DNA of 49,359 bases, taken from positions 1 to 49,359 of the IMG/VR virus record IMGVR_UViG_3300037242_000102. The stretch is one strand, 5' to 3'. Source of the stretch: a virus. Under the pieces are notes generated by a model. That model did not search any database. It worked only from the letters and a program-made list of their open reading frames with translations, and was not told where the DNA came from. Position numbers and translations under genes: made by a program. Shown one piece after another: positions 4,542 to 42,981 of the stretch (within the stretch, counting starts at the first letter, position 1; the number at the start of each line of letters is the position of its first letter).

Positions 4542-4555
4542 AAAGGGGAAACCAA

Positions 4556-27269: not shown

Positions 27270-27856
27270 TGCCACTGATCGTTCCTCTGCCTCCAAAAAA
27301 CGTAGCGCGTTTACGCTTCGTTGATGGCGGCACGTGGACGTCAAAAGCGATCGAAGCTCGCTCCGGTGCCGACATAAGCCACGTTGAAGCGGTTATGGCA
27401 GATGGAACGATCGTCGCCTCACTTATTGACATCGGCGTTCAGCGTTTTGCAAACGACTATGACACCACGTCAACCATGCAAGTGTTCATCGATATCCCTA
27501 TGGATGAGCACATGTATGACCAGTGGACATATTTTCTATGGGACGCCTGTGGCGCCACATACGATACCGAAGACCTCTATGGAGACATCTTTGATCTAAA
27601 TTTGCATACCCGAGGAGCCTACATATGCTCGGCGGTGCAAGTTGCTGCGGAGAGGCATTGTGGATGGCTTGAGCATCGGTTGGCACTTCAATTTTCGGAA
27701 GTGACGCCAGCCATACTGCTCATGATGCATCTTGCGCAACCAAGAGGGCGGGTGAATATCCACTCGCCTGAATACGTGCCACAAAGTAGGAGGGTATATG
27801 ACATACTTCAAGCGCCACCACACTCCAAAGCTTCCAATTATCAAGGAGGGCCATGA
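27269..27856 (+). CDS. Permuted NlpC/P60 (YiiX-type) cysteine peptidase candidate
   Basis: 195 residues. The His comes first (DISHVEAVMADGTIVAS) and the Cys later (TRGAYICSAVQVAAERH), the order seen in circularly permuted papain-fold proteins such as YiiX/YaeF. Substrates could be peptidoglycan peptides or amide bonds in proteins or lipids; the sequence does not decide. It is cotranscribed with the preceding papain-like gene. Confidence 0.6.
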   Translation: MPLIVPLPPKNVARLRFVDGGTWTSKAIEARSGADISHVEAVMADGTIVASLIDIGVQRFANDYDTTSTMQVFIDIPMDEHMYDQWTYFLWDACGATYDTEDLYGDIFDLNLHTRGAYICSAVQVAAERHCGWLEHRLALQFSEVTPAILLMMHLAQPRGRVNIHSPEYVPQSRRVYDILQAPPHSKASNYQGGP

Positions 27857-28555: not shown

Positions 28556-29324
28556 TGTCCACCTAAGCCAGGACATCAACATACCTCTTCAACAATATGT
28601 GGATCAGCGGTTCAACGAAAGTAATCGGGCCGCTGATTTTCGCGTAAAGTTTGCTGAGGAAATTCTTGAACGTGTCGAGAAAAGGGCTGAGGTTGAATAC
28701 GCCAAGTTTGACGGTCTTATGCCGCGCGACACGTTCAATGTTTATGTTGGCCGTGTGACGAATGATTTCAATAATGTTCATGAAGAGGTGAAACACCTCA
28801 ACGAGAAAATTACCAACGTCCACGAAGACCTGAAGGAAAACCTTTCAAAATTGGAACTTCGGATTGTTTGCAAGGAAATTTTTGCTGCATATGTGCAACG
28901 GGCGGCAGACGACCTTTCCAAAGCAAAAGAGGAAATTCAAGAGGCCACTAAGCTTGCCGTGAGCGTGAGAGAGGCAGCTACGAAGGCGTTGGCCGATAGC
29001 TCCTTGGCGAACACCCAAACAGATAATACTCGATTTGAAGAGATAAATGCGCGAATTATTAGTGCAAGGACGGCTACGTCAGAAGAGATCAAGGAAGCGA
29101 CAAAACACCCGTGGCACCTTTGGTTAATGGCGGCCGGTGTAGCAGTAGGTATACTAACCGCCCTTTCTAGCGGGTTTTACTCCTTTGTGCTTTCGCCGAT
29201 GCAAGCGAAGGACACGGCTTTAGAACAGCGGATAACAACACTGGAAACCCAAAATAGCAAAAACATTGATCGCACTTATGATGCTATCCAACAGATACTG
29301 AAAAAATTAGACACACACAAGTGA
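28530..29324 (+). CDS. Coiled-coil protein with C-terminal membrane anchor
   Basis: 264 residues; GGAGGAT precedes the ATG. Residues 20-185 are almost continuous coiled coil (EEVKHLNEKITNVHEDLKEN, DDLSKAKEEIQEATKLA). A membrane segment follows at about 190-212 (WLMAAGVAVGILTALSSGFY), then a short coiled tail. Last gene of the late operon. It could be a lysis regulator or membrane-tethered scaffold; the sequence does not show which. Confidence 0.65.
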   Translation: MPEEVPKVNVHLSQDINIPLQQYVDQRFNESNRAADFRVKFAEEILERVEKRAEVEYAKFDGLMPRDTFNVYVGRVTNDFNNVHEEVKHLNEKITNVHEDLKENLSKLELRIVCKEIFAAYVQRAADDLSKAKEEIQEATKLAVSVREAATKALADSSLANTQTDNTRFEEINARIISARTATSEEIKEATKHPWHLWLMAAGVAVGILTALSSGFYSFVLSPMQAKDTALEQRITTLETQNSKNIDRTYDAIQQILKKLDTHK

Positions 29325-29329
29325 AAACC

Positions 29330-29707
29330 TTAAGGGGTTTCCTCTAGGTAGGTTGCAGCGGCGCGACAAATTTTGGGGTCGTCACGTAAAAACCCTATGC
29401 CTAAATTACACCCGGCACACAGTAGCCCACGCGGCCACCCGGTAGCATGGTTGTGATCGGTATGCGTGGATCGATCGTCGGCAATTGGTACACCGCAAAT
29501 GGCACATTTATTGTCTTGTGCATCGAGCATGAAGTAAAACTCTTCCTTACCGACACCGCGCTTTTTTTTCCGACGTTTATTCCGATTTATTTCGGGATGT
29601 GCGTGTGCGTACACGCGATTGCGGGCATTAACCTCTTCCTTATGGTCTGAGTAATATTTTTGGCCGTAAGCCTTTCGTTCGGCTTTGTTTTCTGAATAAT
29701 ATGTCAT
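29330..29707 (-). CDS. Endonuclease VII-family protein
   Basis: 125 residues from the ATG at 29707 (AGGTG upstream); a GTG at 29716 is also in frame. A basic helical N-terminus leads to the zinc and catalytic core: DNKCAICGVPI, THTDHNHATGWPRGLLCAGC, NLGIGFLRDDPK and a final helix. The complete CxxC...DHNH...CxxC set predicts an active nuclease, either a Holliday-junction resolvase-like enzyme or a homing endonuclease. It faces the end of the late operon and lies between that operon and a terminator. Confidence 0.85.
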   Translation of the reverse strand: MTYYSENKAERKAYGQKYYSDHKEEVNARNRVYAHAHPEINRNKRRKKKRGVGKEEFYFMLDAQDNKCAICGVPIADDRSTHTDHNHATGWPRGLLCAGCNLGIGFLRDDPKICRAAATYLEETP

Positions 29708-29723
29708 TTTAAACACCTAAAAA

Positions 29724-29758
29724 GGCCCTTCCTTTTCGGAAGGGCCGTTTCTTTTTTT
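29724..29758. terminator. Bidirectional Rho-independent terminator
   Basis: Perfect 9-bp stem GGCCCTTCC / GGAAGGGCC (29724-29746) with loop TTTTC. On the + strand it is followed by GTTTCTTTTTTT; on the - strand by TTTTT. It can end the late operon from the left and the small-gene operon from the right. Confidence 0.85.
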
Positions 29759-29780
29759 GCCTTTTTGATGCGGGTACAAG

Positions 29781-30104
29781 CTACCAAATCGCGAGTACCA
29801 ACGCACAGAGAGCGAGACCCGCGAGAACAAACCACGTGTAGTTCCTCGGAGGCGGCTCGACTGCGCCGATGGCACGAGCCAGCTGTTCGTGTGTCCGTCT
29901 CTTCTCCATCAATGCGGCTCTCTTCGCCTTCTCCGCGCGGTGACGCGCCGGTTCCTCGACGATGGCTCCGATTAGGGCCGCTACGCCCGCGATCAGCAGC
30001 CACGCGACGAAAAAGACCGCCCCCAATATCATCGTTGGGAGTGGTGCAACAAGGAAAAAGAAAGCGAATACGATGCCTATCGCAACACAGAAAATGAGTT
30101 TCAT
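29781..30104 (-). CDS. Small multi-pass membrane protein
   Basis: 107 residues; GGAGGAGGTG upstream of the ATG. Two N-terminal membrane segments (FCVAIGIVFAFFFLVAPL, AVFFVAWLLIAGVAALIG), a basic helical part and a third segment at the end (WFVLAGLALCALVLAIW). Unknown function. An overlapping longer frame is discarded because this one has the ribosome-binding site and clear membrane pattern. Confidence 0.65.
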   Translation of the reverse strand: MKLIFCVAIGIVFAFFFLVAPLPTMILGAVFFVAWLLIAGVAALIGAIVEEPARHRAEKAKRAALMEKRRTHEQLARAIGAVEPPPRNYTWFVLAGLALCALVLAIW

Positions 30105-30119
30105 TATTCACACCTCCTC

Positions 30120-30143
30120 CCCATTTTACTGTAGCAAAATGGG
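30120..30143 (-). promoter_or_regulatory. Inverted repeat before the membrane-protein gene
   Basis: CCCATTTT (30120-30127) and AAAATGGG (30136-30143) form a perfect 8-bp palindrome with an 8-base loop, just upstream of the ribosome-binding site of the 29781-30104 gene. Possible operator or mRNA hairpin. I see no gene in 30144-30226. Confidence 0.4.
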
Positions 30144-30226
30144 TGGCTGTACGGGTGTATGACACATTGGTCATCCATATCACAGACCTTGTAACTTCGG
30201 TATATCTGTTCACCCTTGTCACCCAA

Positions 30227-30271
30227 GCTTTGCATGTATGCGGCGCACTAGGCGTCGCATAGGTTCAAAGC
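30227..30271 (-). repeat. Intercistronic hairpin repeat, copy 1
   Basis: GCTTTGCATGTATG ... CATAGGTTCAAAGC; outer arms GCTTTG/CAAAGC and inner arms ATGCGGCGC/GCGTCGCAT can pair. The element begins at the stop codon of the 30265-30468 gene (TCA 30265-30267). A second copy at 31225-31268 has the same position relative to a stop codon. Confidence 0.7.
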
Positions 30272-30468
30272 GCGAGACGTCCGTTCTCCCACGTATTTTC
30301 CGCGTAGAACTCCGCGTCCAAATCTTTCTGATAGGCGTTATAGAGTTGCCTGGTGCCAGCCAAGAAAGCGGCATCCGCAATCTCTTCACGGTCGCGACGG
30401 CGCTTTAGGGCGGCGACAGCGGCCTCATAAACGCGTTGAATGGCGCGTTCGCGGTTGGTTAGCAACAT
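30265..30468 (-). CDS. Small helical early protein
   Basis: 67 residues from the ATG at 30468, two bases after the previous stop. Basic helices (RERAIQRVYEAAVAALKRR, EIADAAFLAGTRQLYNAYQK). No family. A longer in-frame start at 30588 is rejected because it overlaps the upstream small gene. Confidence 0.6.
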   Translation of the reverse strand: MLLTNRERAIQRVYEAAVAALKRRRDREEIADAAFLAGTRQLYNAYQKDLDAEFYAENTWENGRLAL

Positions 30469-30470
30469 TG

Positions 30471-30632
30471 TCACACCATAGCGTTCAGGACAAAATACAC
30501 GGCGACCATCGCCGCATATGTCCAATAGTAAAATACCCACGCCGCAAGCGGATGCGGCGTAGTTGTGTAAACAAACAGCGCGCAACATCCAATCGCGGCT
30601 CGGCGCACATCGGCCTTCTCGATCGGTTTCAT
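30471..30632 (-). CDS. Small membrane protein
   Basis: 53 residues, MKPIEKADVRRAAIGCC, then two hydrophobic stretches (ALFVYTT, WVFYYWTYAAMVAVYFVLNA). It starts in an ATGA overlap with the upstream gene. Too short for a default gene caller, but the coupling and codon pattern support it. Confidence 0.55.
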   Translation of the reverse strand: MKPIEKADVRRAAIGCCALFVYTTTPHPLAAWVFYYWTYAAMVAVYFVLNAMV

Positions 30633-30814
30633 TTTACCTTCACCTCTTCGGCTTCAGACTTTTCCATCCACTCAGCCACTTCGGCATCAGGGATGCACTT
30701 GAACGAGAAGTAGGGGTTACCGTATACCTTGATCACGCCGTGTTCGATCAACCCACACATGAGAGTGTAGACGATCCACGGCACGAACAACGGGATTAAA
30801 AGAAACGTTGTCAC
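30629..30814 (-). CDS. Small membrane protein
   Basis: 61 residues from a GTG at 30814, 9 bases after GGAGG and overlapping the upstream stop (GTGA). One N-terminal membrane segment (TTFLLIPLFVPWIVYTLMCG) and an acidic C-terminus. Unknown. Confidence 0.6.
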   Translation of the reverse strand: MTTFLLIPLFVPWIVYTLMCGLIEHGVIKVYGNPYFSFKCIPDAEVAEWMEKSEAEEVKVK

Positions 30815-30954
30815 GGTCGTAAAGCCTCCATAATGAAGGCGCAACGCGCCTTGTTCTCCTCTTTCAGGGCGGCCTTAGTCGCCCTGATGCCTTTCGCTTC
30901 GTCGAGTTTTTTGCGGGCCTTCACCCACGCCTGATAGGCTTCCTCGTGCGTCAT
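30811..30954 (-). CDS. Small charged helical protein
   Basis: 47 residues, MTHEEAYQAWVKARKKLDEA, then ATKAALKEENKAQRAF. It starts in a TAATG overlap with the upstream gene and ends in a GTGA overlap with the downstream one. A single amphipathic helix. Confidence 0.6.
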   Translation of the reverse strand: MTHEEAYQAWVKARKKLDEAKGIRATKAALKEENKARCAFIMEALRP

Positions 30955-31187
30955 TAGCAGGCACCCCACTCAGTTCGTTTGGTGCCGCAGTTCCAATGGA
31001 CGCCCTGGTCGCCACCGGTGTAATTCCGCACCGGCGCGCGGTCTTCGCCCTTAAACTCGTCGATGGCTTTGCAAGCTTTCGTCAGGCTTTGATACCCGCC
31101 GCCGCCTTGCCACCAATAGGTCGCTTGTTCCCTATCGAACAGGATTTGGAAACCGCGGTATTTTGCTCTGTATTCATGTTTGGTCAT
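30954..31187 (-). CDS. Small early protein
   Basis: 77 residues; AGAGGAG precedes the ATG. It has YRAKYRGFQILFDREQATYWWQ, a Gly tract and a basic C-terminus with two Cys. No family recognised. First gene of a five-gene overlapping set running to 30265. Confidence 0.6.
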   Translation of the reverse strand: MTKHEYRAKYRGFQILFDREQATYWWQGGGGYQSLTKACKAIDEFKGEDRAPVRNYTGGDQGVHWNCGTKRTEWGAC

Positions 31188-31224
31188 AACCTACTCCTCT
31201 ACCCTTCGGTCATCTGCGCAAATT

Positions 31225-31268
31225 GCTTTGCGTGTATGAGGCGCTTGCGCGCCGCATAGGCTCAAAGC
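31225..31268 (-). repeat. Intercistronic hairpin repeat, copy 2
   Basis: GCTTTGCGTGTATG ... CATAGGCTCAAAGC, with inner arms GGCGC/GCGCC and outer arms GCTTTG/CAAAGC. It starts at the stop of the 31262-31360 gene. Compared with copy 1 the loop differs while pairing is mostly kept. Confidence 0.7.
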
Positions 31269-31360
31269 TTCGGGAACAAGGTTCCCTGTTTAACTAGCTC
31301 AATCACGAACTGACCAACAATTGCGGGCCATGTCCATACCAATAAAAACCACGATGCCAT
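31262..31360 (-). CDS. Very small membrane protein
   Basis: 32 residues, MASWFLLVWTWPAIVGQFV then IELVKQGTLFPKL; AGGAAGG lies 8 bases upstream of the ATG. One membrane helix with a short polar tail, the size of a microprotein. Confidence 0.5.
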   Translation of the reverse strand: MASWFLLVWTWPAIVGQFVIELVKQGTLFPKL

Positions 31361-31373
31361 TTTTGGAACCTTC

Positions 31374-31475
31374 CTACTTGCGGTAGCTCCAAAATTGGCG
31401 CCACGCGAAAAAGTGTGCCGTCTGTAAGATACGCTCAGACAGCCACATCATATATTCAAACTGGCGGTCAGTCAC
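31374..31475 (-). CDS. Very small basic/aromatic protein
   Basis: 33 residues from a GTG preceded by AAGGAAGG with 7-base spacing: VTDRQFEYMMWLSERIL then QTAHFFAWRQFWSYRK. A longer in-frame reading up to 31706 is rejected because it runs into the structured non-coding block and lacks a ribosome-binding site. Confidence 0.5.
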   Translation of the reverse strand: MTDRQFEYMMWLSERILQTAHFFAWRQFWSYRK

Positions 31476-32138
31476 TGTACCTTCCTTATGCGTCTTGTCG
31501 CTCCCAGACGAAGAGTTGAACTTCGTTTTACACCCACCGTTTAACAACGGCCGTTCCGCGATACCTCTAGGGCAAGGGCCTCGCGCCGGGGCAGGGAGGG
31601 ATAAGACGCATTGTAAATTGAAGCATGACCCCATGTCGCACAGACATGCTAACCGGAGCACGTTCACCACGTGACGATATGGATTTTCTAGGTCTACCTG
31701 AACCATGCTTCGATTTAAAATGGTCGCGGGAGGCGGATCATAGAGGCGACCACGATCGGGTTTTAACCGCGTTTGGATTTATGTCTCGATCATGCAGGCT
31801 CCCGCTCAAGAAGTGACTAAAGGAGAGCATCGCCCGTTTCATAGCTTGTAAAGCTTTTGCGCCACTGCGCATTGCGTGCTCTCTTTTAGTCTCTCCAAAC
31901 GTCAAAGGTGTGTCATCCGCCTCAGCGCGTGACAAATCGCCTGAACCATGCGGCACCCTTGACGTTTGCTGGCATCTCTCGATGTGCCCTATAAGAGACT
32001 ACAGAGCATCAGGCCGATCCGCTCGTCTAACATTGAGCTCGGCGAAACTTTTCAAAAAGTGTGCCTGCCCTTCGGCGCGTGTTGATTGTACCTGATGCCG
32101 TGTAGTATCTCGTTTTACCATTGCGGACTTTATCGCAC

Positions 32139-32426
32139 TTATTCGCCGCAGGAGTTGCGGAGATAATCAACGGCCGCTTCCGCCCCGGCAAGATCGTCGC
32201 CGAGAGCCGATAGCCCGTTGTTACATTTGCTGCATAAAATCCCACGAACCCTTCCGGTCACGTGGTCATGGTCTAAGTTCCATTTACGTGCGGCAGTCAC
32301 TCCGCACAATGCGCACGAATATCCTTGCTTCTCGAAGAGGGTAAAAACTTCATCCATTGATATATTGTATCGATGTTTGAAGCTTAGACCTCCGGGACGC
32401 CTATTGATTTCATGCCAGTCTTGCAT
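32139..32426 (-). CDS. Endonuclease VII-family protein inside the structured block
   Basis: 95 residues from the ATG at 32426; AAAGGGCG precedes it. Core: YSCALCGVTAARKWNLDHDH, then VTGRVRGILCSKCNNGLSAL, with both CxxC pairs and the DHDH catalytic segment present. The frame stays open for a further 91 codons upstream without a ribosome-binding site; that part is non-coding. The gene splits the inverted-repeat-rich stretch into two blocks, as a homing gene inserted into an RNA locus would. Confidence 0.8.
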   Translation of the reverse strand: MQDWHEINRRPGGLSFKHRYNISMDEVFTLFEKQGYSCALCGVTAARKWNLDHDHVTGRVRGILCSKCNNGLSALGDDLAGAEAAVDYLRNSCGE

Positions 32427-32443
32427 GTTCGCCCTTTCTCTTA

Positions 32444-32549
32444 AGAAACTATGTGAGCCGCTTGCCCCGCAGAACCCTATCGCGCTCAGTCCTGCGTTTG
32501 TCGTCAAGCTCTTCCTTGCGCCGTGCAACGTGCGGCTCACATAGTTTCT
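32444..32549. repeat. 18-bp perfect inverted repeat with 70-base loop
   Basis: AGAAACTATGTGAGCCGC at 32444-32461 and its exact complement at 32532-32549. It lies just upstream of the endonuclease VII ribosome-binding site. As RNA it would make one of the most stable stems of the region. Confidence 0.85.
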
Positions 32550-33042
32550 CAAAGCATATATGTGAAGACGTTTGGCTTCTCTCGCACCTCCCTCGCTCGA
32601 CCCGTTAACTAAGCTCCACTCGCCTTCCGGGCTCGCTTCGCAGCTTCGCAATGTCAAGTCGCGGCCTCGATGCAATGTATCCGTCCACTGTCGTGGCACG
32701 TCTTCGCATATATGCTCAATGGCTTAGATCGTGTGAACGTTTGCTATTGGGCTTGCATCGGTCTTTTCAGGCCTTTCGGCGCCGGGCCTCCCTTCGCATG
32801 GTAGCTAAGAAGTTTCACTAAGCGGTTTGTTCCGCCGCCGCGCAGCCGATGTGCCATGCAAGCGTTCGCATGATCTAAACTATTTTGCTTGTACCCTTAG
32901 GACGGCTCTGCGCCGCCCCCGCACTGTGGCGGGTGGCTTGCGGCCTTTTCTCGGCGCTTTTGGAAGGCGCTGGGCGGCTCTCACTACCTTTTCCCCTTTT
33001 ACCGGAGGACCGGGTGGAAGCTTGCTTGACCCCTTCCTGGGT

Positions 33043-33076
33043 ACCCATCTAATATAGGAAGTCTTGATGGGTTTTT
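33043..33076 (+). terminator. Terminator-like hairpin, rightward
   Basis: ACCCATC (33043-33049) pairs with GATGGGT (33066-33072), followed by TTTT. The 16-base loop is long. The same bases carry the -10 and -35 of a leftward promoter, so the pairing may instead be an operator. Confidence 0.4.
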
Positions 33077-33079
33077 CAA
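33051..33079 (-). promoter_or_regulatory. Leftward sigma70-type promoter P1
   Basis: Read on the - strand: TTGAAA (33079-33074), 17 bases, TATATT (33056-33051). The 11-base block ATCTAATATAG around the -10 is identical to that of P2. The start point would be near 33044, at the edge of the structured block. Confidence 0.6.
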
Positions 33080-33100
33080 GTGGATGGTGGATTTTTTTGG

Positions 33101-33123
33101 TGCCCCTCGGGGCCTTTTCTTGG
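33101..33123 (+). terminator. Terminator-like hairpin, rightward
   Basis: GCCC-CTCG-GGGC tetraloop hairpin followed by CTTTTCTT on the + strand. Nothing obviously transcribed rightward precedes it, except possible antisense RNA from the structured block. Confidence 0.45.
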
Positions 33124-33149
33124 GAGGGGTTCCTTTCTCCCTCTAATCT

Positions 33150-33178
33150 AATATAGTCACTGTTTGACTAAATTACAA
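33150..33178 (-). promoter_or_regulatory. Leftward sigma70-type promoter P2
   Basis: Read on the - strand: TTGTAA (33178-33173), 17 bases, TATATT (33155-33150), with the same -10 neighbourhood as P1. No gene is visible between 33179 and 33231. Confidence 0.6.
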
Positions 33179-33231
33179 GGGGTCTTTTTGAAATTTGTGG
33201 AATATCAATGGGTTAAGGCTCATATTAAATT

Positions 33232-33432
33232 TTATGAAATTCCGTCACTTTTTCCAAATTCTTCAATGATTTCTTGTTTTCCCTCGGCCGCTCGCGCAGC
33301 GAGTATTTGCCTGTTGTCGGCCTCGCGCCGCAGTTTCTTGCAAACCTGCTTCGCTTCGGCCCGCTTTCCCCAATAACCGCCACCGTTTTTGGCACCCCCG
33401 TGCTCGGTGCGCGTGTGCTTTCCCTCACTCAT
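33232..33432 (-). CDS. Small basic conserved-looking phage protein
   Basis: 66 residues; starts in an ATGA overlap. EHGGAKNGGGYWGKRAEAK is a pattern I have seen in small early phage proteins; the rest is Lys/Arg/Glu-rich helix. A competing frame at 33225-33428 lacks this and is discarded. Confidence 0.6.
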   Translation of the reverse strand: MSEGKHTRTEHGGAKNGGGYWGKRAEAKQVCKKLRREADNRQILAARAAEGKQEIIEEFGKSDGIS

Positions 33433-33632
33433 AGTCGATAAAACTCCTCGATTATCTCGTCGAATAGCTCGCCCTCGGCCGCTTGCGCGATGAACTTACG
33501 CTTTAGCTCGATCCGATTGCTCAAGCTCGCGACGACGGACGAGGCAATGAGAAGCTTGCGCTCTAGCACCTCGACCTCTTGCTCCATGTTCTGCTTAAGT
33601 TGGCGTAGCAGGTCCGCGTCCATATAGGTCAT
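33429..33632 (-). CDS. Small coiled-coil protein
   Basis: 67 residues, almost all heptad-like helix (LLRQLKQNMEQEVEVLERK, SLSNRIELKRKFIAQ). ATGA overlaps on both sides place it in one operon with its neighbours. Confidence 0.6.
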   Translation of the reverse strand: MTYMDADLLRQLKQNMEQEVEVLERKLLIASSVVASLSNRIELKRKFIAQAAEGELFDEIIEEFYRL

Positions 33633-33898
33633 TGTCTCGTTTCTCCCGGTTGAAGTTCAAGTCTCTGCCGTATCTTCTCGCGCTCGACCGCCTCGATGCC
33701 GATCGCGTGGATTAGGCGCGTCTCGGCTCGGTCAACCACCTGCCACGCGAAGCGGGCGGCCTCGGCCGCCAGTTCCTTGTCTATGGCGGCAAGGGCTTTG
33801 TCCACGCGCCGGGTTGACTTGATCGCGATCGCGGTTGCCGTCTCCCACACTTGGTGAGCGATGGCACGATTGGTGACAAGCTTGCCATACTTTTTCAT
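33629..33898 (-). CDS. Small helical early protein
   Basis: 89 residues, Ala/Lys/Glu-rich helices (AAIDKELAAEAARFAWQVVD, EREKIRQRLELQPGE). GAGG lies 6 bases before the ATG. No family. Confidence 0.6.
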   Translation of the reverse strand: MKKYGKLVTNRAIAHQVWETATAIAIKSTRRVDKALAAIDKELAAEAARFAWQVVDRAETRLIHAIGIEAVEREKIRQRLELQPGETRQ

Positions 33899-33926
33899 GA
33901 CAGCCTCACGCCGCTAGAAGGAACAA

Positions 33927-34226
33927 TCATGGAACTTTCCTTAAAAATGTGATGTTGTAGAGGCCCTCTTTGTTTGAGCGCATCGGCGAATTGTTCCAAT
34001 AATCGTTCGGATTTTTCGGCCCAGACGGCGGATTGTAGACCGAACGCTCGGGTGCCCGCAATATTTCGAAAGCGGACGTCGCGGGCTGGCTGAAGTAGCC
34101 CTGCCAATAGAGAAAGCCGACCAGGCCCGCAGGCGGCGCGGCAACGATCGCCGCGTAAAGCGCGATGGCGAGGTATCGACGCCACCGGCTCGGTGCACGT
34201 TGTAACGGGCTGTTAAAGAATGTCAT
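33927..34226 (-). CDS. Single-pass membrane protein
   Basis: 99 residues from the ATG at 34226, behind GGGAGAAGGGTG. A basic N-terminus (RAPSRWRRYLAIALYAAIVA) leads into a membrane segment ending in GLVGFLYW; the C-terminal 60 residues are Pro/Asn-rich and probably outside. A competing frame (33895-34185) is discarded. Confidence 0.6.
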   Translation of the reverse strand: MTFFNSPLQRAPSRWRRYLAIALYAAIVAAPPAGLVGFLYWQGYFSQPATSAFEILRAPERSVYNPPSGPKNPNDYWNNSPMRSNKEGLYNITFLRKVP

Positions 34227-34446
34227 CACCCTTCTCCCACATAACTGACAGTGACCCGTCGAGATGCCACTTTGCGACAATCTGATGCCCACCCTCGACG
34301 AGGTAGCGCATGGTTAGACAATCGTTCTTATCTGCCGACTTCGGATAAATTTCGAAGGCGACAAACCAACCGGCAAACAGTGTTGCCGCAAGGGGGAAGT
34401 ATGCGTCCACTGCCGCGAGCCATGCCCAAATCCCACAGTCGATCAT
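34213..34446 (-). CDS. Small early protein with hydrophobic N-terminus
   Basis: 77 residues from the ATG at 34446, directly behind AGGAGGAAAGG. Residues 3-32 are hydrophobic (WAWLAAVDAYFPLAATLFAG); the rest is polar with beta character. It overlaps the next gene by 14 bases. Confidence 0.6.
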   Translation of the reverse strand: MIDCGIWAWLAAVDAYFPLAATLFAGWFVAFEIYPKSADKNDCLTMRYLVEGGHQIVAKWHLDGSLSVMWEKGDDIL

Positions 34447-34456
34447 CCTTTCCTCC

Positions 34457-34687
34457 TCATGGTAGGCCGGTCCACGCACGCCACGCGTCATAGTCGGCAT
34501 CGTTCTCGCGCAGCACATAGAGGCGCCAAATGTGAAAGCGTATCTCCCATTGCTGCGCGTAGGTTAACACCGGCCACGTGTGGATGTATTGCGGCTGATA
34601 GGTGCTCATTTTTTGCCCTTCCTCGGGGAGGCCGCGCAGGCGCATATTCCACACCTGCGCGAAATTGGCAACCGGCCGGGATTTCAT
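34457..34687 (-). CDS. Small early protein with two possible starts
   Basis: 76 residues from the ATGA overlap at 34687, or 50 residues from the ATG at 34609 (MSTYQPQYIHTWPVLTYAQQ). Both starts are preceded by the identical block GGAAGGGCAAAAAATGA, a duplicated translation-initiation segment. The C-terminal part has aromatic helices. The duplication suggests that two small genes may once have stood here. Confidence 0.55.
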   Translation of the reverse strand: MKSRPVANFAQVWNMRLRGLPEEGQKMSTYQPQYIHTWPVLTYAQQWEIRFHIWRLYVLRENDADYDAWRAWTGLP

Positions 34688-34962
34688 TTTTTGCCCTTCC
34701 GCGGGAAGATCGAGCGGCCCATCTGCTTTTTGGGTTGCGGCGCGCGCATGTGGCCGGTGTCAAACTCGCCATTCGAGCCGTCAGTGAAACTGACCAGATA
34801 GCTCTCTTGGATAATTGGCCCCTGCGCGGTCGCGCTCGGCGCGCGCATCAACTTGACGATGACGCCGGGCATCCAAATCTTCTCGCTCTGCATCGGAGCC
34901 TTGTATCTGTTGCGCAGGACTTCGACCGGGGTTCCGTCGCCGTAGGTTCTCACGAATGCCAT
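34684..34962 (-). CDS. SH3-like protein, paralogue of the late tandem-repeat protein
   Basis: 92 residues from the ATG at 34962, after AAGGGAAAG. MAFVRTYGDGTPVEVL, then KIWMPGVIVKLMRAP and YLVSFTDGSNGEFDTGHMR match, in order, MTFVRQWANGQVVEV, PVWIPAIVTN and YTVALPDGSLRPFDVRYIR of the 7453-7926 protein. One barrel domain plus a basic tail (FPRKGKK). A role in binding protein tails, RNA or DNA is possible but unshown. Confidence 0.65.
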   Translation of the reverse strand: MAFVRTYGDGTPVEVLRNRYKAPMQSEKIWMPGVIVKLMRAPSATAQGPIIQESYLVSFTDGSNGEFDTGHMRAPQPKKQMGRSIFPRKGKK

Positions 34963-34963
34963 A

Positions 34964-35137
34964 TCAATCTTTCCCTTCATCAACGATTTCGTTCAGCCTT
35001 TTTCGGCCGTCCTGCCAGCCCCTCGCCCACACATTGTGAAGAGGATCAACTGGCCAATAGGGGTTGTAGGCATATGGAACGCGGCACGAGAACCCCGCCC
35101 ACAGGCCGTCTAGGTAGGTTAGAACTTCAGTTTTCAT
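34964..35137 (-). CDS. RMF-like small protein (ribosome modulation factor type)
   Basis: 57 residues: YLDGLWAGFSCRVPYAYNPY, then HNVWARGWQDGRKRLNEI. A GxxAG helix, an NPY turn and a WxxGWxxGR helix are the landmarks of RMF and RMF-like small proteins. In bacteria RMF dimerises and silences ribosomes; a phage copy could affect translation. It lies within overlapping early genes (11-base overlap upstream, 1-base gap downstream). Confidence 0.5.
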   Translation of the reverse strand: MKTEVLTYLDGLWAGFSCRVPYAYNPYWPVDPLHNVWARGWQDGRKRLNEIVDEGKD

Positions 35138-35342
35138 GCTTCACCGATTTAGTAGGCCTTAACCATCCACCGGCATTCCAGAAGTTGACATACCGGGCCA
35201 CCTGATTGAGGGTCCGGCGCGAACCAATCCATTCGCCATCGACGAAAATGTCGATACCCTGTCTGGCGCTGTTGTCCTTGGCGTAGTAAGGCCGGATTTC
35301 GACAATGATCTCCGGCCCCGCGGAACCATAGAAGCCTTTCAT
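35127..35342 (-). CDS. Small early protein
   Basis: 71 residues from the ATGA overlap at 35342. EIIVEIRPYYAKDNSARQGI, FVDGEWIGSRRTLNQVARYV indicate an alpha/beta domain of unknown family. The longer in-frame reading to 35507 overlaps the upstream gene and is rejected. Confidence 0.6.
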   Translation of the reverse strand: MKGFYGSAGPEIIVEIRPYYAKDNSARQGIDIFVDGEWIGSRRTLNQVARYVNFWNAGGWLRPTKSVKHEN

Positions 35343-35998
35343 TTCACGACCTCGGGCATATTCTCCTCGGCCCACTTCAGGCAGTCTTCGCACAGGCCGG
35401 AGCGCACGTGTTTGTCCGCATACTCGAATGTCGAAAATTGGAAGTTTGGCCCCATACAATTGGGATTGCGGGTGATCTCGGTAGGTGGTTTCCCGCAACC
35501 GACGCACGTTGTGTATTTGAAGATATTCAACCCGGACGCCACGACGAACGGTCGCTCCGCGTTTTCCAATTCAGGCTCGGTGGTCTTCTCGCGGTCCTTG
35601 AACTTCTCTTCGGCGTATTTGCCATGCGCTTCCAACATGCGCTCAAAGTTCTCCTCGTCGAGACGAAAGAACAAGGCCACGTAGCGTTCAAACTCGACGT
35701 CTGAAACTCGTGAGGCGCGCTTGATGGCATAGGCCACGCGAAGCAATTGCGAAATTGCATACGAAGCCCGTGTGGCACTGTTGCCCAACAAGGCCTTATA
35801 TTCGTCGGGCCCATGGCCGAGGACCATGCAATACAGGTCATAGTTGCGATCGAGGGCGGCGTGAATGTCGCCCTGCGCCTTGTTGAAAATGTCGGTTAGC
35901 ATCTGCGTATCGTTGACACCAAGGTTCGCCTTGATGTGCTCTCTCATTTCCTCTTGAGACATGTTCAGCATCTCTTCGGTCATTAGTTCATCGCTCAT
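35339..35998 (-). CDS. Helical protein with C-terminal zinc ribbon
   Basis: 219 residues. Residues 1-150 are acidic helices (SDELMTEEMLNMSQEEMREH, EFERYVALFFRLDEENFER). The C-terminus has CVGCGKPP and, about 35 residues later, CEDCLKW, a probable zinc site. No family recognised. It overlaps both neighbours. Confidence 0.65.
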   Translation of the reverse strand: MSDELMTEEMLNMSQEEMREHIKANLGVNDTQMLTDIFNKAQGDIHAALDRNYDLYCMVLGHGPDEYKALLGNSATRASYAISQLLRVAYAIKRASRVSDVEFERYVALFFRLDEENFERMLEAHGKYAEEKFKDREKTTEPELENAERPFVVASGLNIFKYTTCVGCGKPPTEITRNPNCMGPNFQFSTFEYADKHVRSGLCEDCLKWAEENMPEVVK

Positions 35999-36167
35999 TG
36001 CTCACCTGTGGTACGAACACCCAGTCATGTGACCGCTTGTTCCAGTAGTCGATCAAGGCAATAAATGCCTCACGGTTGGGCATGGTGATTTCGCATGCCA
36101 TTGTTCGGTTCCATATCACCAGCTGCGGAGCACCGATGAGCACTCGCAGATACCTGAAGCGTTTCAT
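35988..36167 (-). CDS. Small early protein
   Basis: 59 residues from the ATG at 36167, behind GGGAGGATG. LRVLIGAPQLVIWNRTM and IALIDYWNKRSHDWVFVP suggest a compact alpha/beta unit. Unknown. Confidence 0.55.
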   Translation of the reverse strand: MKRFRYLRVLIGAPQLVIWNRTMACEITMPNREAFIALIDYWNKRSHDWVFVPQVSNER

Positions 36168-36289
36168 AGCATCCTCCCAATCGCCAGGGCCGGAAGCCAC
36201 AAACATAGGAAGGCGGCCAGTGGCAAGTAAAACCGCCAGTGATACCGAGCGTACCACCATGCGGCATGCTGTACGAAAAACAGGGTCAC
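36164..36289 (-). CDS. Small membrane protein
   Basis: 41 residues from a GTG that overlaps the upstream stop (GTGA); AAAGGTGG precedes it. An aromatic start (FFVQHAAWWYARYHW) is followed by one membrane helix (YLPLAAFLCLWLPALAIG). Confidence 0.5.
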   Translation of the reverse strand: MTLFFVQHAAWWYARYHWRFYLPLAAFLCLWLPALAIGRML

Positions 36290-36531
36290 GACGCTACCCA
36301 CCTTTCCAGTTTGCGAACGGCGACGCCGAGCCACGCATGCGCCACGTGCATGACGAAGAGCACAGACCACGCGGCCACGGCCTTATGGAGCCCCGGCTGC
36401 ATCACGTTGTGAAAGAGGGCCTCGGCTGGCTCTTGTTCCTCGAACCATCCGCGCCCGTTGCATTCCCCACACAGGTAGCGGCCTTGAAGGGCGGTGCCCT
36501 TGCAGGCACCGCAAATAATACGCCTGGTCAT
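36286..36531 (-). CDS. DnaJ-type zinc-finger protein with membrane segment
   Basis: 81 residues from the ATGA overlap at 36531. CGACKGTALQGRYLCGECNG is a single CxxCxG...CxxCxG finger like half of the DnaJ cysteine-rich domain. A helix with VLFVMHVAHAWLGVAV follows. Such lone fingers occur in small phage proteins; a link to chaperones is speculation. Confidence 0.55.
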   Translation of the reverse strand: MTRRIICGACKGTALQGRYLCGECNGRGWFEEQEPAEALFHNVMQPGLHKAVAAWSVLFVMHVAHAWLGVAVRKLERWVAS

Positions 36532-36776
36532 CCACCGTTCCCTTCGTCGTCTTGCTGGACACTGACGGCGACCTTGCCGCCAGAAATTTCGATAGTGGAA
36601 CGTCCGTCGCTCACGACACAATGAAGATTGCCGCCGCTCAGAAGCGCCCGGGCCATCTTGGTGCCGATAGCTTGCTCGTGAATTGCGTGAGCATTATCTT
36701 CGACGGCCTTAAACCTAGTCATGATTGCCGCGGCGTCACAGGTGGCGACCGTTACGGCCTTTGATTTGCGTGCCAT
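36528..36776 (-). CDS. Small early protein
   Basis: 82 residues; GAGGAGA before the ATG. A helix (TRFKAVEDNAHAIHEQAIGT) is followed by beta strands (LHCVVSDGRSTIEISGGKVA). Function unknown. The 51 bases upstream (36777-36827) hold only its ribosome-binding site. Confidence 0.6.
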   Translation of the reverse strand: MARKSKAVTVATCDAAAIMTRFKAVEDNAHAIHEQAIGTKMARALLSGGNLHCVVSDGRSTIEISGGKVAVSVQQDDEGNGG

Positions 36777-36827
36777 TACAATTCTCCTCGATATGTTATG
36801 TGTGATGGATGCAATACCCGGTCTCGA

Positions 36828-37163
36828 TCAGATGCGCGGCAGTGCGTCCGTAATGTCCTGCAGCGTCCAAGCGAGGCCGCTGTCGATTAAGTCTTGGAAA
36901 AAGGACACGATGTCCTCTTGTTCCATGTCGCCTTGTTCGTATGCGATGATGCGATCATACATCGCTATCAGTTTCGGGTCAGGGCGGCAATTCAAATTTA
37001 CGGTGCCGTCAGGACCCTTGATGTTGCATTCGACGTCGGTGAACGTGTATTTGGTGGCCATCTTCTGACCCTTTCGATCATAAACCTTACCGGACTTGAC
37101 GATGCGAGGCCGGAACCTTGGGGTTCTAACGGCCTTCGCGATGGGGTTTTTCCGGTTTCTCAT
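36828..37163 (-). CDS. Early protein with basic N-terminal peptide
   Basis: 111 residues from the ATG at 37163, or 77 residues from the ATG at 37061, which has GAAAGGG at good distance. The upstream part, MRNRKNPIAKAVRTPRFRP, is a basic peptide pattern that I recall as a separate tiny protein in many phages; here it runs in frame into the acidic helical protein (MATKYTFTDVECN...). Either the two are fused or the second start is also used. The promoter at 37170-37198 would give a transcript starting at or very near 37163, which favours the inner start. Confidence 0.5.
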   Translation of the reverse strand: MRNRKNPIAKAVRTPRFRPRIVKSGKVYDRKGQKMATKYTFTDVECNIKGPDGTVNLNCRPDPKLIAMYDRIIAYEQGDMEQEDIVSFFQDLIDSGLAWTLQDITDALPRI

Positions 37164-37169
37164 ACACCC

Positions 37170-37198
37170 TATGTAGGGATCAGGGCGAAGAGTGTCAA
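37170..37198 (-). promoter_or_regulatory. Leftward sigma70-type promoter
   Basis: Read on the - strand: TTGACA (37198-37193), 17 bases, TACATA (37175-37170). A consensus -35 with a modest -10. It would feed the small-gene operon left of 37163. Confidence 0.4.
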
Positions 37199-37338
37199 GG
37201 CCTTTGCGCGGTTTTAAGTTGCCACGCGCGGCACCGGTCACGGTTTCGAGTGCACCAGCGCCCCTGTAGGCCCCCGAGGGAGATTTGCGACCAGGGCGAC
37301 CACCGATGGAAGCCAAGCCAGCATAGGATGGTTTTCAC
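37195..37338 (-). CDS. Small DUF1660-like protein
   Basis: 47 residues from a GTG behind GGGAGGGGG. VKTILCWLGFHRWSPW followed by Arg/Cys-rich residues (RWCTRNRDRCR) resembles small phage proteins with a CxxGFHRW start and a Cys knuckle. The longer in-frame reading to 37395 lacks a ribosome-binding site. Confidence 0.5.
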   Translation of the reverse strand: MKTILCWLGFHRWSPWSQISLGGLQGRWCTRNRDRCRAWQLKTAQRP

Positions 37339-37420
37339 AGCTGCGCCCCCTCCCACCTTTCCCGCCTGTGGCGACGCCACCCAGACTAAGGCCAAAGCCT
37401 TGAATCAGCTTCAAAAAATG

Positions 37421-39166
37421 TCATTTCACACCTCCAAGTAGTTTCTCCATTTCGGGATCGATCACCGTGTCGCCACCTTCGGCGGCCGGGTTCTCAATCG
37501 CTCGGCGTATTTCGTCGAACGTCAAACTCGCAATGTCCTTCCGGTGGCGCAGGACCCTCAATATCTTGGCGTCAACGGTGTTCATCCCGATCAAATCATG
37601 GATCGTGAGCGTCCCCTTCATGCCGCCACGGTGTCCACGATCTTCCGCTTGAACGCGCTCGATGTAATTGAACGAGTTGGAGAAAAAGATCATGGTCTGG
37701 GCGACCTGAAGACCGTCGAGACCGGTGCCGCCCATTTGAGCGTTAGAGACAAAGAAGCGGCGTTGACCGCTCACAAACATCTGCTTATTTTTGGCGTTCA
37801 CTTCGGCCGCATTCAAACCGTAATAAGTCGCGACCGTGTGCCTGCCAAACTCGACTTCGAGGCGCTTGGTGATGGTCTCGATGTCGTGAGTGAAGCGCCC
37901 CCAGATGACAACCTGCCCCTGAGATTGCTTCACGATGTCAATCATGGCGTCGAGCCGCTCACCCTTCCCGATCTCGACAAGGCCGCTACCATCTGGCGCA
38001 GGTAGAAACCCACACGTGATTTGCTGCAGGCGCATCATCGCCGTCATGGCATTTTTGACATCTAGTTTTTGATCGGGTGCGAGGTTCACCATCCACGTCT
38101 CGCGCAGTTCATCGTATTTGGCGCGCGTCTCCGGTGCCAGCTGGAACCGGCGCTGCGCATAGATTTTCGGTGGCAGCTGCAGGTTCGTCTCCGCTTTTGT
38201 GAGGCGATCTGTATAGGGTGCCACAAGCGCCCAAAACTCCTCGGTGTTCTTTTGGTCGATTGGGGTGCGGCCATCGTAACCACCGAGCACACAGAAGTGG
38301 CCGATGAACGACGTCACATAGCGGTAGCCGAGGATTTTCCAGTTCAGAAAATAGAACTGGCTCCAACAGCCGAGCGCATCGCCGGGTGAGCCCGTCATGA
38401 TCCGCTTATAGCGGATCAGGTCCACGAGACCTTCAACCTTTTGCTTGCTGCTCGACCAGCCAATCAGTTTCTTAGTGCGGTCGCTCTCGTGACGCCGAAA
38501 CCGGTGTGCCTCGTCGATGACGCAAAACATCTTGTTTGGGCCGTGTGCGAGCGCGAAGTCTTTCAGCGTCTCGAACATCTTTGAGCGCAGCATGTCGGTG
38601 GTGCCGACAACGAGCGTGAAGCCCTTGTTCACGTAGTCGAACCTTTTCTGCTTGCGCAACAGGATCGTGGTGATCGGAAATGAACGATCCCAATACATGG
38701 GCAGCTGTTCGTCAATCCACTGAGCGTCAACGCCGATCGGCGCAATCACGATGCCGCCTGTTATGAGGCCCGCGGCATGGAGCATCCCCATATTGACGAT
38801 TGCCAGGGAAGTTTTGCCCAATCCACATTCATGAAAGTAGGCGCGGGCTTCGTCACCCCAATGCTCCCGGAGTGTCGCCTTGTGAAAGTCATACATGGGT
38901 CCTGGGTAAATGAACTCGGGCGGCGCCTCCGGCGCGTCCGGCATGCCGACGCGGGCGAGCCCGTCAATTGTGCTCGTCTCGCCAACGAAGTCAAACTCAA
39001 GATCGGATGCGTGTAGAATGCGCAGGTTCGAGGGAGATGCCTCGAAACGGCATCCCCCCTCGCCCCACGACTTTCTACCACTAAGTTGGGTGGCAAGGGA
39101 GAGCCATCTAATAGGAAGTGGCCCGACCGCCACAGCATGGTCCTTTCCAATAATAACCTTGATCAT
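37421..39166 (-). CDS. SNF2-family helicase
   Basis: 581 residues, the right size for a minimal phage SF2 translocase. Motif I ECGLGKTSLA (about residue 112), motif II VIDEAHRFRRH, motif III TGSPGDALG, a motif IV region at QVVIWGRFTHDIE, motif V with GGTGLDGLQVA and motif VI QAEDRGHRGG. Phage members act in replication, recombination or genome remodelling. It starts in an ATGA overlap with a DNA-binding protein gene. Confidence 0.85.
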   Translation of the reverse strand: MIKVIIGKDHAVAVGPLPIRWLSLATQLSGRKSWGEGGCRFEASPSNLRILHASDLEFDFVGETSTIDGLARVGMPDAPEAPPEFIYPGPMYDFHKATLREHWGDEARAYFHECGLGKTSLAIVNMGMLHAAGLITGGIVIAPIGVDAQWIDEQLPMYWDRSFPITTILLRKQKRFDYVNKGFTLVVGTTDMLRSKMFETLKDFALAHGPNKMFCVIDEAHRFRRHESDRTKKLIGWSSSKQKVEGLVDLIRYKRIMTGSPGDALGCWSQFYFLNWKILGYRYVTSFIGHFCVLGGYDGRTPIDQKNTEEFWALVAPYTDRLTKAETNLQLPPKIYAQRRFQLAPETRAKYDELRETWMVNLAPDQKLDVKNAMTAMMRLQQITCGFLPAPDGSGLVEIGKGERLDAMIDIVKQSQGQVVIWGRFTHDIETITKRLEVEFGRHTVATYYGLNAAEVNAKNKQMFVSGQRRFFVSNAQMGGTGLDGLQVAQTMIFFSNSFNYIERVQAEDRGHRGGMKGTLTIHDLIGMNTVDAKILRVLRHRKDIASLTFDEIRRAIENPAAEGGDTVIDPEMEKLLGGVK

Positions 39167-40280: not shown

Positions 40281-40798
40281 GCCAAATCCCCTACATCATT
40301 AAGGGTCGCCCATTCCCCAAAGGCCTCGATTGCGGCTGTGTTATAGGCAAGAGCCGCTTGACGTTCATCGGCGAACCGGCCTAGAGATTTCTTATGTCTA
40401 TTAATCTGAATTTGAGCCCTCCATTTGCCCCTTTCTTTTTCATAGGTGACACCCTTGAATATACTAGACCCCTTTTGATGTCTACGCCCTTGACAGTTTA
40501 CGAGGTGAGAGACTTCGTGCAAATTATCCGGGTGATTATTTAATCCATCGTGGTCAGGATGATGTGCCACGTCCATTCCAAGCAACGGCCATCGACCATG
40601 CACCATACTCCAAACAATTTCATGAGCAAAATGCAATCGACCATTGACCCTAACCTCACGATAAAAGGTTCGACCATTAGCCTTAACACATCCCGCCACG
40701 TCACCGACCTTTATGACATTTGAACGTGCTATTTTCCAACGGAGAATGCCATTTCCGTCAAGGTAAAATAATTCTCTCAATTGTTCAACGGTTGTCAT
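40277..40798 (-). CDS. HNH-AP2 homing-type endonuclease
   Basis: 173 residues from the ATGA overlap at 40798. A short N-terminal helix and WKIARSNVIKVGDVAGC lead to an HNH core (HFAHEIVWSMVHGRWPLLG, DVAHHPDHDGLNNHPDNL). The C-terminal 60 residues form an AP2-type DNA-binding domain (SSIFKGVTYEKERGKWRAQI, ADERQAALAYNTAAIEAFGE). It is the gene immediately downstream of the polymerase and is coupled to it. Confidence 0.9.
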   Translation of the reverse strand: MTTVEQLRELFYLDGNGILRWKIARSNVIKVGDVAGCVKANGRTFYREVRVNGRLHFAHEIVWSMVHGRWPLLGMDVAHHPDHDGLNNHPDNLHEVSHLVNCQGRRHQKGSSIFKGVTYEKERGKWRAQIQINRHKKSLGRFADERQAALAYNTAAIEAFGEWATLNDVGDLA

Positions 40799-42981
40799 GA
40801 AAGCTCCCCGACAAAGAGGCAACCTTTAACATCTAGCATACGGAAACCTTCAGGACAACACCCCTTGAAACACCACACCGATTTCCCCACATTGCAATGA
40901 TCTAATATTGCAGGTGCAAGTCGCTCGAAATCAAACCTTCCAATCTTGAAAAAGATTTCGCCGCTATCATCCATTATCCACCCCTGTAACGCTCTTGTGG
41001 GGCCTCGAAACTCTCGTCCGTGGCGTTTTGCCACCCGGGCGGCTTCATTTTCATCTATAGTAACACACTTGTTTATTTTTCCAACACACATAACCTGGCC
41101 GCGCGTGTCGCCGGGGTGAACATCTGCAATTGCCGTGTCCGGCGTCGCGATGTTCAAATTGGGCTTGGCGCGCTTGTAGAAGGTCATGACCGGGAACAAA
41201 TCATCGATCTCGGTCTTCGCCTCGGTAAGCTTTTTCATAAGACTGTCCCTTAAAGGTGTCTTATTCACGCGGTGTGAAAGGATTTCACAAACGGCGGCCG
41301 GTCCTATCCCTTTGATGGCGGTAAGCGGCCCAACCAATTGCTGATGACCGTCAGCGTCAAGACCCACTGACCAGCGATCAACACTATTGGATGGATCAAC
41401 AGAAACATAGTTCACTCCTTCGCGATATAGCTCGCGCAAAATTGTCAGCTGTTTGTCGGGCTCGGTTCCTTCCTTGTCCAATGTCGCGGCGGCGAAAGGT
41501 GTCGGAAAGTGAGCCTTTAGGTACATGCAATAGTAAGAGACGATAGCATAAGCTACAGCGTGACTTCTATTGAATGAATAATTGCCATGGAACACAATTT
41601 CGTCGAACGTCTTATTGGCGATGACGGTATTCACCCCATTGGCCTGCGCGCCGGTCACGAACATCTCACGATACTTGTTGATCACGTCCGCGCCGAATTT
41701 TTTACTTATAGCCTTGCGGAGCTTGGTGACATCCTCCCAGCTCATGCCCCCAATTTCACGGGCAATACGCATGATCTGTTCTTGATAGACGAGGCAGCCT
41801 AGCGTCGGTGCAAGGATCGGTTCAAATAGCGGGTGAGGGTACGCAACCTCTTCCTCACCATTCTTACGGCGAACCCAGATTGTCGCTTCGCCCGAATTAG
41901 TTGGCCCTGGGCGGACCAGGGCGGTGAGCGCTGCCAGGTCTTCAATGTTCTCAATATGGACCTGTCGTGCGAGCGCTTGTGACGCTCCCCCTTGAAACTG
42001 GAATACACCTGAAAATCTCCCTCGGTTAATGACGTCGAAAGCAGCTGGATCGTCAAGTGGAAGCGTTTCGAAATATCCGCTGTTCGAGCAGACTTTCATG
42101 CATGGATCAATTATCTCTAAGCATCGCTCGAAGATCGATAATTGCGAGAGGCCTAAAACGTCAACCTTGAGCAAGTTGAACTCTGTCGCATCTTGTCCGT
42201 CACACATGGTGGTTCCACTACCACTTAAGGCTGTGTAATCCATGATTGGGCCATTAGTCAGCACAAGACCACATGCGTGCGTCCCTTGCGTGAATGGGTG
42301 CCCCTCTATCTTCGTCACGACAACAGCTTCGGGATGTTTAGCAATAAAGGCTTGTCCAATTGGCACCGTGTCAAACGTTTCTTCGAGTACCGGCCGATCA
42401 TCACCAGACGACCTCTCAATCACGGCGGCGGCAACGGCATCAGTTTCATATTTCGGAATGCGAAGACTTTGATTGACCACAACGTTCAAAGCGGAATGGC
42501 TACGTAAGTAAGTTACCGTGCCAAGCCGCGCTACGCGATCGCTACCGTATTTGCGGCTCACATAGTTGAAGAGGCTGCACCTTGGGAAGGCGGGATTGTC
42601 CCTACGTTCTTCACTGACATCGCTGTCGATATCCGGGAAGTCCGAACGATTCAAATCGAGGAAACGTTCAAAGAGCAAATCCCACTTGATCGGGTCCACA
42701 GTCGTAATTCCGAGCAAGTAGCAAACCAAGCTACCGGCCGACGATCCCCGACCAGGGCCAACTAACATCTCACTCTTTGCAAATCTAATCAGGTCATACA
42801 CGATAAAAAAGTACGGTGCGAAGTTTTTAGCCTCGATCACTTCAAGCTCACGATTGAAACGTGCTTCATAAACGGGATCGTTCCAAACACACGTTAGGAC
42901 GCTATTGTAGTATTCTTCCCAATGGCAGAGCCCCATACGAACGGCTCGCATTTCGCACAGTTTCCGTAGGGTAACTTTCAT
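40795..42981 (-). CDS. dnaE: DNA polymerase III alpha-type polymerase, polymerase part
   Basis: 728 residues from the ATG at 42981, 9 bases after GGGGAG. C-family polymerase landmarks: GPGRGSSAGSLVCYLLGIT, the catalytic pair in SDFPDIDSDV, LLKVDVLGLSQL with the third Asp, GVFQFQGG, TALVRPGPTNSG, CLVYQEQIMRIA and GNYSFNRSHAVAYA, with a helix-hairpin-helix part (AIKGIGPAAV). The N-terminal PHP domain is absent and is encoded by a separate gene just upstream (43106-43882). The two are colinear with ordinary DnaE. It should copy the phage genome together with the DnaQ-type exonuclease. Confidence 0.85.
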   Translation of the reverse strand: MKVTLRKLCEMRAVRMGLCHWEEYYNSVLTCVWNDPVYEARFNRELEVIEAKNFAPYFFIVYDLIRFAKSEMLVGPGRGSSAGSLVCYLLGITTVDPIKWDLLFERFLDLNRSDFPDIDSDVSEERRDNPAFPRCSLFNYVSRKYGSDRVARLGTVTYLRSHSALNVVVNQSLRIPKYETDAVAAAVIERSSGDDRPVLEETFDTVPIGQAFIAKHPEAVVVTKIEGHPFTQGTHACGLVLTNGPIMDYTALSGSGTTMCDGQDATEFNLLKVDVLGLSQLSIFERCLEIIDPCMKVCSNSGYFETLPLDDPAAFDVINRGRFSGVFQFQGGASQALARQVHIENIEDLAALTALVRPGPTNSGEATIWVRRKNGEEEVAYPHPLFEPILAPTLGCLVYQEQIMRIAREIGGMSWEDVTKLRKAISKKFGADVINKYREMFVTGAQANGVNTVIANKTFDEIVFHGNYSFNRSHAVAYAIVSYYCMYLKAHFPTPFAAATLDKEGTEPDKQLTILRELYREGVNYVSVDPSNSVDRWSVGLDADGHQQLVGPLTAIKGIGPAAVCEILSHRVNKTPLRDSLMKKLTEAKTEIDDLFPVMTFYKRAKPNLNIATPDTAIADVHPGDTRGQVMCVGKINKCVTIDENEAARVAKRHGREFRGPTRALQGWIMDDSGEIFFKIGRFDFERLAPAILDHCNVGKSVWCFKGCCPEGFRMLDVKGCLFVGELS

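Follow-up and report, generated by a model that had tools for sequence, protein, structure and literature searches.

The block at 31488-33047 is probably the gene of an orphan giant phage non-coding RNA (ncRNA), predicted to be read from the - strand, to carry an HNH homing gene as a passenger and to belong to none of the GOLLD, ROOL, ICP1 or phage K families. This reading, drawn from the sequence, is given a probability of roughly two in three. As sequence anatomy, a large, structured, non-coding block housing a homing-type gene is well supported, and the long gene-free stretch with folding beyond chance on both strands is what characterises large structured phage ncRNAs as a class. The window, that is the whole stretch of DNA analysed, is the complete IMG/VR virus record IMGVR_UViG_3300037242_000102 (49,359 bases), which may itself be a fragment. 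Genes for tail sheath, tape measure protein, baseplate wedge, DNA polymerase III alpha and an SNF2-type helicase are present on it, and the contig is therefore attributed to a myovirus-like tailed phage. A tRNA search of the 49-kb contig found none.

Layout of the structured block

The limits that fit the block best are 31488-33047 (~1.6 kb), and only one clear gene lies within them. An earlier note on this DNA had described a structured, inverted-repeat-rich and nearly gene-free block at 31500-33044; stem counts, shuffled sequences and a codon model bear out the block, while its limits are corrected here. It is composed of ten adjoining hairpin domains in tandem, closed mostly by stems of 14-27 positions, with a nearly gapless tiling and with stems mutually unrelated in sequence. 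Compared with shuffled sequences, nine of the ten domains reach z values of -2.4 to -8.2 on the - strand. Read along that strand, the features are as follows.

32885-33047, - strand: D10, the 5' domain, multi-branched, GUACCC/GGGUAC closing; z -1.7, the weakest among the ten
32718-32884, - strand: D9, interrupted closing stem of 27 positions, branched interior, GAAA tetraloop hairpin; z -3.7
32553-32716, - strand: D8, closing stem of 19 nt with 1 mismatch, long structured interior; z -5.6
32441-32552, - strand: D7, closing stem of 21 nt, its end 14 nt upstream of the HNH start codon; z -8.2
32139-32426, - strand: endonuclease VII-type HNH gene, 95 aa, with an AAAGGG ribosome-binding-like site upstream
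31993-32111, - strand: D6, closing stem of 20-24 bp, interior with three hairpins; z -4.0
31969-31992, - strand: small linker hairpin with a GAGA tetraloop, GGCACAUCGAGAGAUGCC, from the predicted fold
31896-31968, - strand: D5, closing stem of 15 bp; z -5.8
31815-31891, - strand: D4, closing stem of 17-18 bp, interior with two hairpins; z -5.5
31726-31805, - strand: D3, closing stem of 7 bp; z -2.4
31614-31717, - strand: D2, closing stem of 14 bp; z -2.5
31488-31611, - strand: D1, the 3' domain, closing stem of 16-18 bp; z -3.6

The earlier count of at least six long stems agrees with the eight listed below, whose arms span 15-27 positions.

32441-32461/32532-32552: stem arms of 21 nt, 1 mismatch
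32553-32571/32698-32716: stem arms of 19
32718-32744/32858-32884: stem arms of 27, 5 mismatches
31488-31505/31594-31611: stem arms of 18
31609-31627/31704-31722: stem arms of 19
31812-31829/31877-31894: stem arms of 18
31994-32013/32091-32110: stem arms of 20
31896-31910/31954-31968: stem arms of 15

Of the smaller elements pointed out earlier, the GAAA tetraloop is present in D9 on the - strand. The 12-base repeat CCTGAACCATGC does occur at 31697 and 31940 but is unremarkable, since two more exact 12-mer pairs lie within the same 2.6 kb. D4 (31811-31895) and D6 (31993-32111) show weak similarity on the - strand (E=0.039, covariance model R1, see below), and the two are possibly an old duplication of one hairpin unit.

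Stem density and folding compared with chance

Stems were counted as perfect or near-perfect local stems, a measure which is independent of strand and of energy model. By this strand-neutral count, of the seven local stems that rank strongest in the whole 49-kb contig, six fall inside the block, and across 166 related viral loci (~9,200 windows of 1.5 kb) the maximum is two strong stems per window. When the stem threshold is lowered, the block reaches 38.5, and the 99.9th percentile of 10,031 windows is 18.5. Two loci obtained by other routes, L243 and L227, outscore it on account of simple repeats or of a single palindrome present in several copies; unlike theirs, the stems of the block are all different from one another.

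Several of the stem-rich loci have features of their own. L243, a viral contig that also has a gene for tRNA-Gln, harbors at 4070-4600 clustered TGTTTCACGTGAAACAT palindromes, similar to partition sites. Loci L169 and L170 were considered as relatives and rejected, their stems being the GGAGGCCTCC repeat. L341 and L343, stem-rich flanks of HNH relatives, were discarded as similar blocks because they are repeat arrays: at ~1250-1580, the intergenic DNA of each carries arrayed repeats of 22-43 bp that include palindromes (GTACTGTACC...GTAGGGTATGC), and an HNH gene and a terminase-like gene lie downstream of them.

These comparisons bear on a reading at the level of DNA, in which the block would be a cluster of palindromes (a site for replication or packaging, or mobile inverted-repeat elements nested in one another) with no RNA function. 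Such a cluster would fit stem mismatches that show no G-U bias on the promoter-bearing strand, as well as the frequency of homing-type genes in this phage. However, palindrome clusters elsewhere (L243, L341, L343) repeat one unit, whereas the stems here are unrelated and tiled almost without gaps; furthermore, the G+C content of the block equals the genome mean, no GC-skew switch occurs at it and the stem interiors are structured on the - strand. A purely DNA-level role is thus considered improbable.

Folding of the two halves joined gives a minimum free energy per nucleotide of -0.392 on the - strand and -0.388 on the + strand, against -0.342 and -0.334 for shuffles (sd 0.007). The fold z values of the two halves were -5.0 and -7.6, and -6.2 and -5.3 in a repeat run. 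In a 300-base energy scan, the segment 31801-32100 takes second place on the + strand and fourth on the - strand among 328 windows. Several coding windows also score low, and for this reason the energy scan alone would not pick out the block; what singles it out is its length together with its stems. The minimum z of the 300-base folding scan (-5.3) belongs to 27301-27600 (+), which lies within an ORF weakly matching an enoyl-CoA hydratase-like PHROG.

Coding potential

A codon model was trained on genes of the phage itself. It gives 31540-32079 scores of -0.18 to -0.24, no higher than the shuffled mean (-0.16), and nowhere in either half does the score rise to the genome coding mean (0.284). 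A protein-coding reading of the block is rejected by this model, and the ORFs 31374-31706 and 31738-31956 are without a Pfam match. One possible small gene is situated directly past D1.

31374-31475, - strand: possible small gene with a AAGGAAGG site and a GTG start (MTDRQFEYMM...); codon score 0.117, weak

The HNH gene and other homing-type genes

The sole protein match in the block is that of the HNH protein encoded at 32139-32426, to Pfam PF02945 (Endonuclease_7, E=1.6e-18). Its reading frame is intact, with the zinc cysteines C38, C41, C65 and C68 and a DHDH motif present, while its codon score (0.021 versus the genome coding mean of 0.284) indicates atypical codon usage. The gene is positioned in the linker separating the complete domains D6 and D7. 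When the halves are joined without it only a weak 7-bp helix arises (p 0.24), so that the gene does not visibly split a helix, and no helix split by it was found. The endonuclease VII gene described earlier is confirmed.

Three endonuclease VII/HNH-type genes are present on the contig, at 728-1504 (+), 29330-29716 (-) and 32139-32426 (-), with atypical codon usage in at least the two - strand genes; these share 38% identity over 73 residues. DNA polymerase III alpha occupies two frames, a PHP part and a catalytic part (43106-43891 and 40795-43026), where relatives have one frame of ~950-1000 aa. Between the two parts, 42978-43094 (-) encodes an HNH endonuclease C-terminal piece (PHROG 99, E=1.3e-6) and is probably a degraded homing gene. 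The two further HNH/EndoVII-type genes, in addition to the HNH remnant in the polymerase gap, support the view that homing-type genes invade this phage. The HNH gene of the block is best read as a homing passenger; no allele of the block free of the gene came to light in the searches.

The HNH gene and the RNA could in principle constitute one system, as IscB does with its guide RNA (HEARO). A nuclease gene on the same strand, enclosed by structured RNA, is the arrangement such a system would present. The protein, however, is a 95-aa endonuclease VII-type HNH and not IscB, HEARO gives no match, and the flanks of 80 HNH-gene relatives contain neither a match to covariance models R1 or R2 nor a comparable block of distinct stems, which leaves a joint system very improbable indeed. 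A group I or II intron was likewise rejected, with no catalytic-core match and no split frame around the block; searches up to E=10 with the intron families and HEARO found no match in the block.

Promoters and the transcribed strand

Two sigma70-type promoters lie upstream of D10.

33051-33079, - strand: proximal sigma70-type promoter, TTGAAA-17-TATATT, then AGAT; consensus 10/12
33150-33178, - strand: distal sigma70-type promoter, TTGTAA-17-TATATT, then AGAT; consensus 9/12

Both contain the exact motif TATATTAGAT, which the rest of the contig lacks; the full pattern TTGNNN-17-TATATTAGAT has two matches in the contig, both of them here, where 0 are expected (100 shuffles). The proximal site, 33079-33051, is the top promoter-like site within 29000-37500 and predicts a transcript start at ~33045. 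Two near-identical promoters pointing into the block had been recognised earlier, and both are confirmed (33079-33051 and 33178-33150, - strand).

The earlier use of these promoters in favour of the - strand is supported, alongside gene direction and stem-interior folding: the HNH gene and the flanking genes are all on the - strand, and stem interiors folded without the long stems are equalled by 4/200 shuffles on the - strand and 38/200 on the +. Purine-rich loops, also brought forward for the - strand, proved a weak argument (45% unpaired A, versus 46% in same-composition shuffles), and A-rich loops are dropped because shuffles give equal unpaired A. Total fold energies are a near tie between the strands.

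The RNA could alternatively be read from the + strand, on which these stems form as they do on the -, with the - strand promoters serving the HNH gene and downstream genes alone. G-U over A-C mismatches in the strand-neutral stems number 8 for + and 4 for -, which upholds the lean previously noted although the count is too small to decide; seven of the ten domains have a small energy advantage on +, and the z of half A is stronger on + in one pair of runs. Half B, on the other hand, folds better on -, and on the + strand there is no promoter-like site within 30500-33025, no terminator-like site just beyond 33047 and no advantage of stem interiors over shuffles, while the neighbouring genes are on -. 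Transcription from the + strand is consequently seen as unlikely, and the odds that the transcribed strand is the - strand are put at about four to one.

Search for relatives

The closest IMG/VR relatives of the DNA polymerase have 42-49% identity. Polymerase scans yielded loci L002-L081, plus L088-L183 with alignments A1 and A2, and the RNA block was not found in polymerase-relative loci by blastn or nhmmer, syntenic loci included; the best blastn piece (38 nt, E=0.008, one of 40 records) was taken as chance. Blastn of the block in collections of phages (50,697 records) and plasmids (72,556 records) gave no relative. Single-sequence covariance models were built for D6 (R1), D4 with D5 (R2) and D9 (R3), models which distant homologues can escape. 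R2 and R3, run on 59 viral records in their full length, matched nothing. HNH scans supplied 86 loci, an HNH scan of genomes returned none and a helicase scan for relatives returned nothing. Probing 2.9 million viral contigs with 15-mer loop sequences gave 69 loci, rejected as similarity ends at the probe and a few bases, and a 22-mer match in a Tenacibaculum contig was set aside for lack of extension past the probe. The search for relatives of the intergenic region that had been proposed thus ended without one by blastn, nhmmer or covariance models, and in the collections searched the block is, by sequence comparison, an orphan.

Proposed transcript and its processing

For an orphan giant ncRNA on the - strand, the following course is proposed. 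Transcription of the - strand would start from a pair of host-type (sigma70-like) promoters in tandem, at 33178 and 33079, and the transcript would fold into ten adjacent hairpin domains, forming an RNA of ~1.27 kb without the insert. The adjacency of the ten domains suggests that they may act as one molecule. The free-standing HNH gene would have settled in the D6-D7 linker, disturbing no domain, and would be translated off the same transcript as the predicted RNA. No - strand terminator was seen close past D1, and for this reason the RNA would probably be released by cleavage from a longer operon transcript, with RNase III acting on the long stems as a plausible agent. By analogy with the most abundant ncRNAs of ICP1 and phage K and with GOLLD and ROOL, it may be an abundant scaffold or sponge during infection.

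The lack of a - strand terminator directly past D1 would also suit a reading of the block as a long, structured 5' leader to the operon that follows it (31475 to ~29750), composed of separate regulatory hairpins, as would the small frame with its AAGGAAGG site just after D1 and the strong terminator downstream at 29746-29724. To our knowledge, however, all known leaders are far below the ~1.5 kb and ten domains of this block, which in addition encloses the HNH gene and has no Rfam riboswitch or leader match; a leader is accordingly held to be quite unlikely. The element at 29724-29746, 3' of the downstream genes (-), is a perfect 9-bp hairpin with T tracts flanking each side, likely a bidirectional terminator separating convergent operons.

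Whether the giant ncRNA gene represents the first known member of a new family of giant phage RNAs, with ten long-stemmed domains, tandem promoters and a linker colonised by a homing endonuclease, is given about even odds. We know of few bacterial or phage RNA classes of such size. If the reading is true, another, unrelated giant RNA would exist, of different architecture and independent of tRNA islands; big structured RNAs would then be a recurrent phage strategy, and the HNH insert would naturally mark domain boundaries at which an insertion is tolerated.

Comparison with known RNA families and transcribed phage RNAs

The Rfam search that had been suggested matched no family: at gathering scores, Rfam 15 gives no match on the entire contig, and relaxing the search of 31200-33300 to E=10 yields three matches far below curated scores (fstAT and two plant microRNA families). 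Neither the GOLLD (RF02032) nor the ROOL (RF03087) model has a match up to E=10, and single-model searches likewise have none, with the caveat that the control genomes gave no match in them either. Possible membership of GOLLD or ROOL, raised in the earlier note, is not upheld by these results, nor by the contig's lack of tRNA.

GOLLD is a giant structured ncRNA of phages and prophages, often >800 nt and sometimes with tRNAs in a linker (PMC12286853). The predicted RNA would resemble it as a giant structured phage RNA with a gene-like insert in a linker, but the insert here is an HNH gene where that of GOLLD is tRNAs, the contig is without tRNA and the model gives no match. GOLLD is often located in tRNA islands, which is typical rather than strictly defining, and forms a homo-oligomeric nanocage. 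For GOLLD and ROOL, whose cage structures have been solved, we know of no function. The likeness to ROOL is that of a large ornate phage RNA without assigned function; the block, however, has no match to it and no tRNA neighbours, and is about twice as long as the ROOL model, which has 574 positions. HEARO and OMEGA RNAs share with it a structured RNA adjoining an HNH gene, but the HNH here is of endonuclease VII type, without IscB domains, and there is no model match.

The most abundant transcript of ICP1 is an ~800-nt RNA from a gene-free gap, in a phage without tRNAs (PMC7567579), and RNA-seq of phage K detected two long RNAs adjoining tRNAs, lnc001 and lnc002 (PMC9241854). Apart from the tRNAs near the phage K RNAs, these match no Rfam family, so unclassified giant phage RNAs do exist. 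By the same fold measure, the block halves reach -6.2 and -5.3, the ICP1 region -2.4 and lnc002 -8.9; long stems number eight in the block, one in the ICP1 region, one in lnc001 and four in lnc002. The ICP1 RNA thus differs in its much weaker fold and single long stem, and model R1 does not match it, while the likeness lies in an unclassified phage RNA with no Rfam match, in a gene-free gap of a tRNA-less phage. The phage K RNAs are AT-rich, tRNA-adjacent, without an annotated gene inside and not matched by R1, but they too are long RNAs outside Rfam, lnc002 having a very stable fold.
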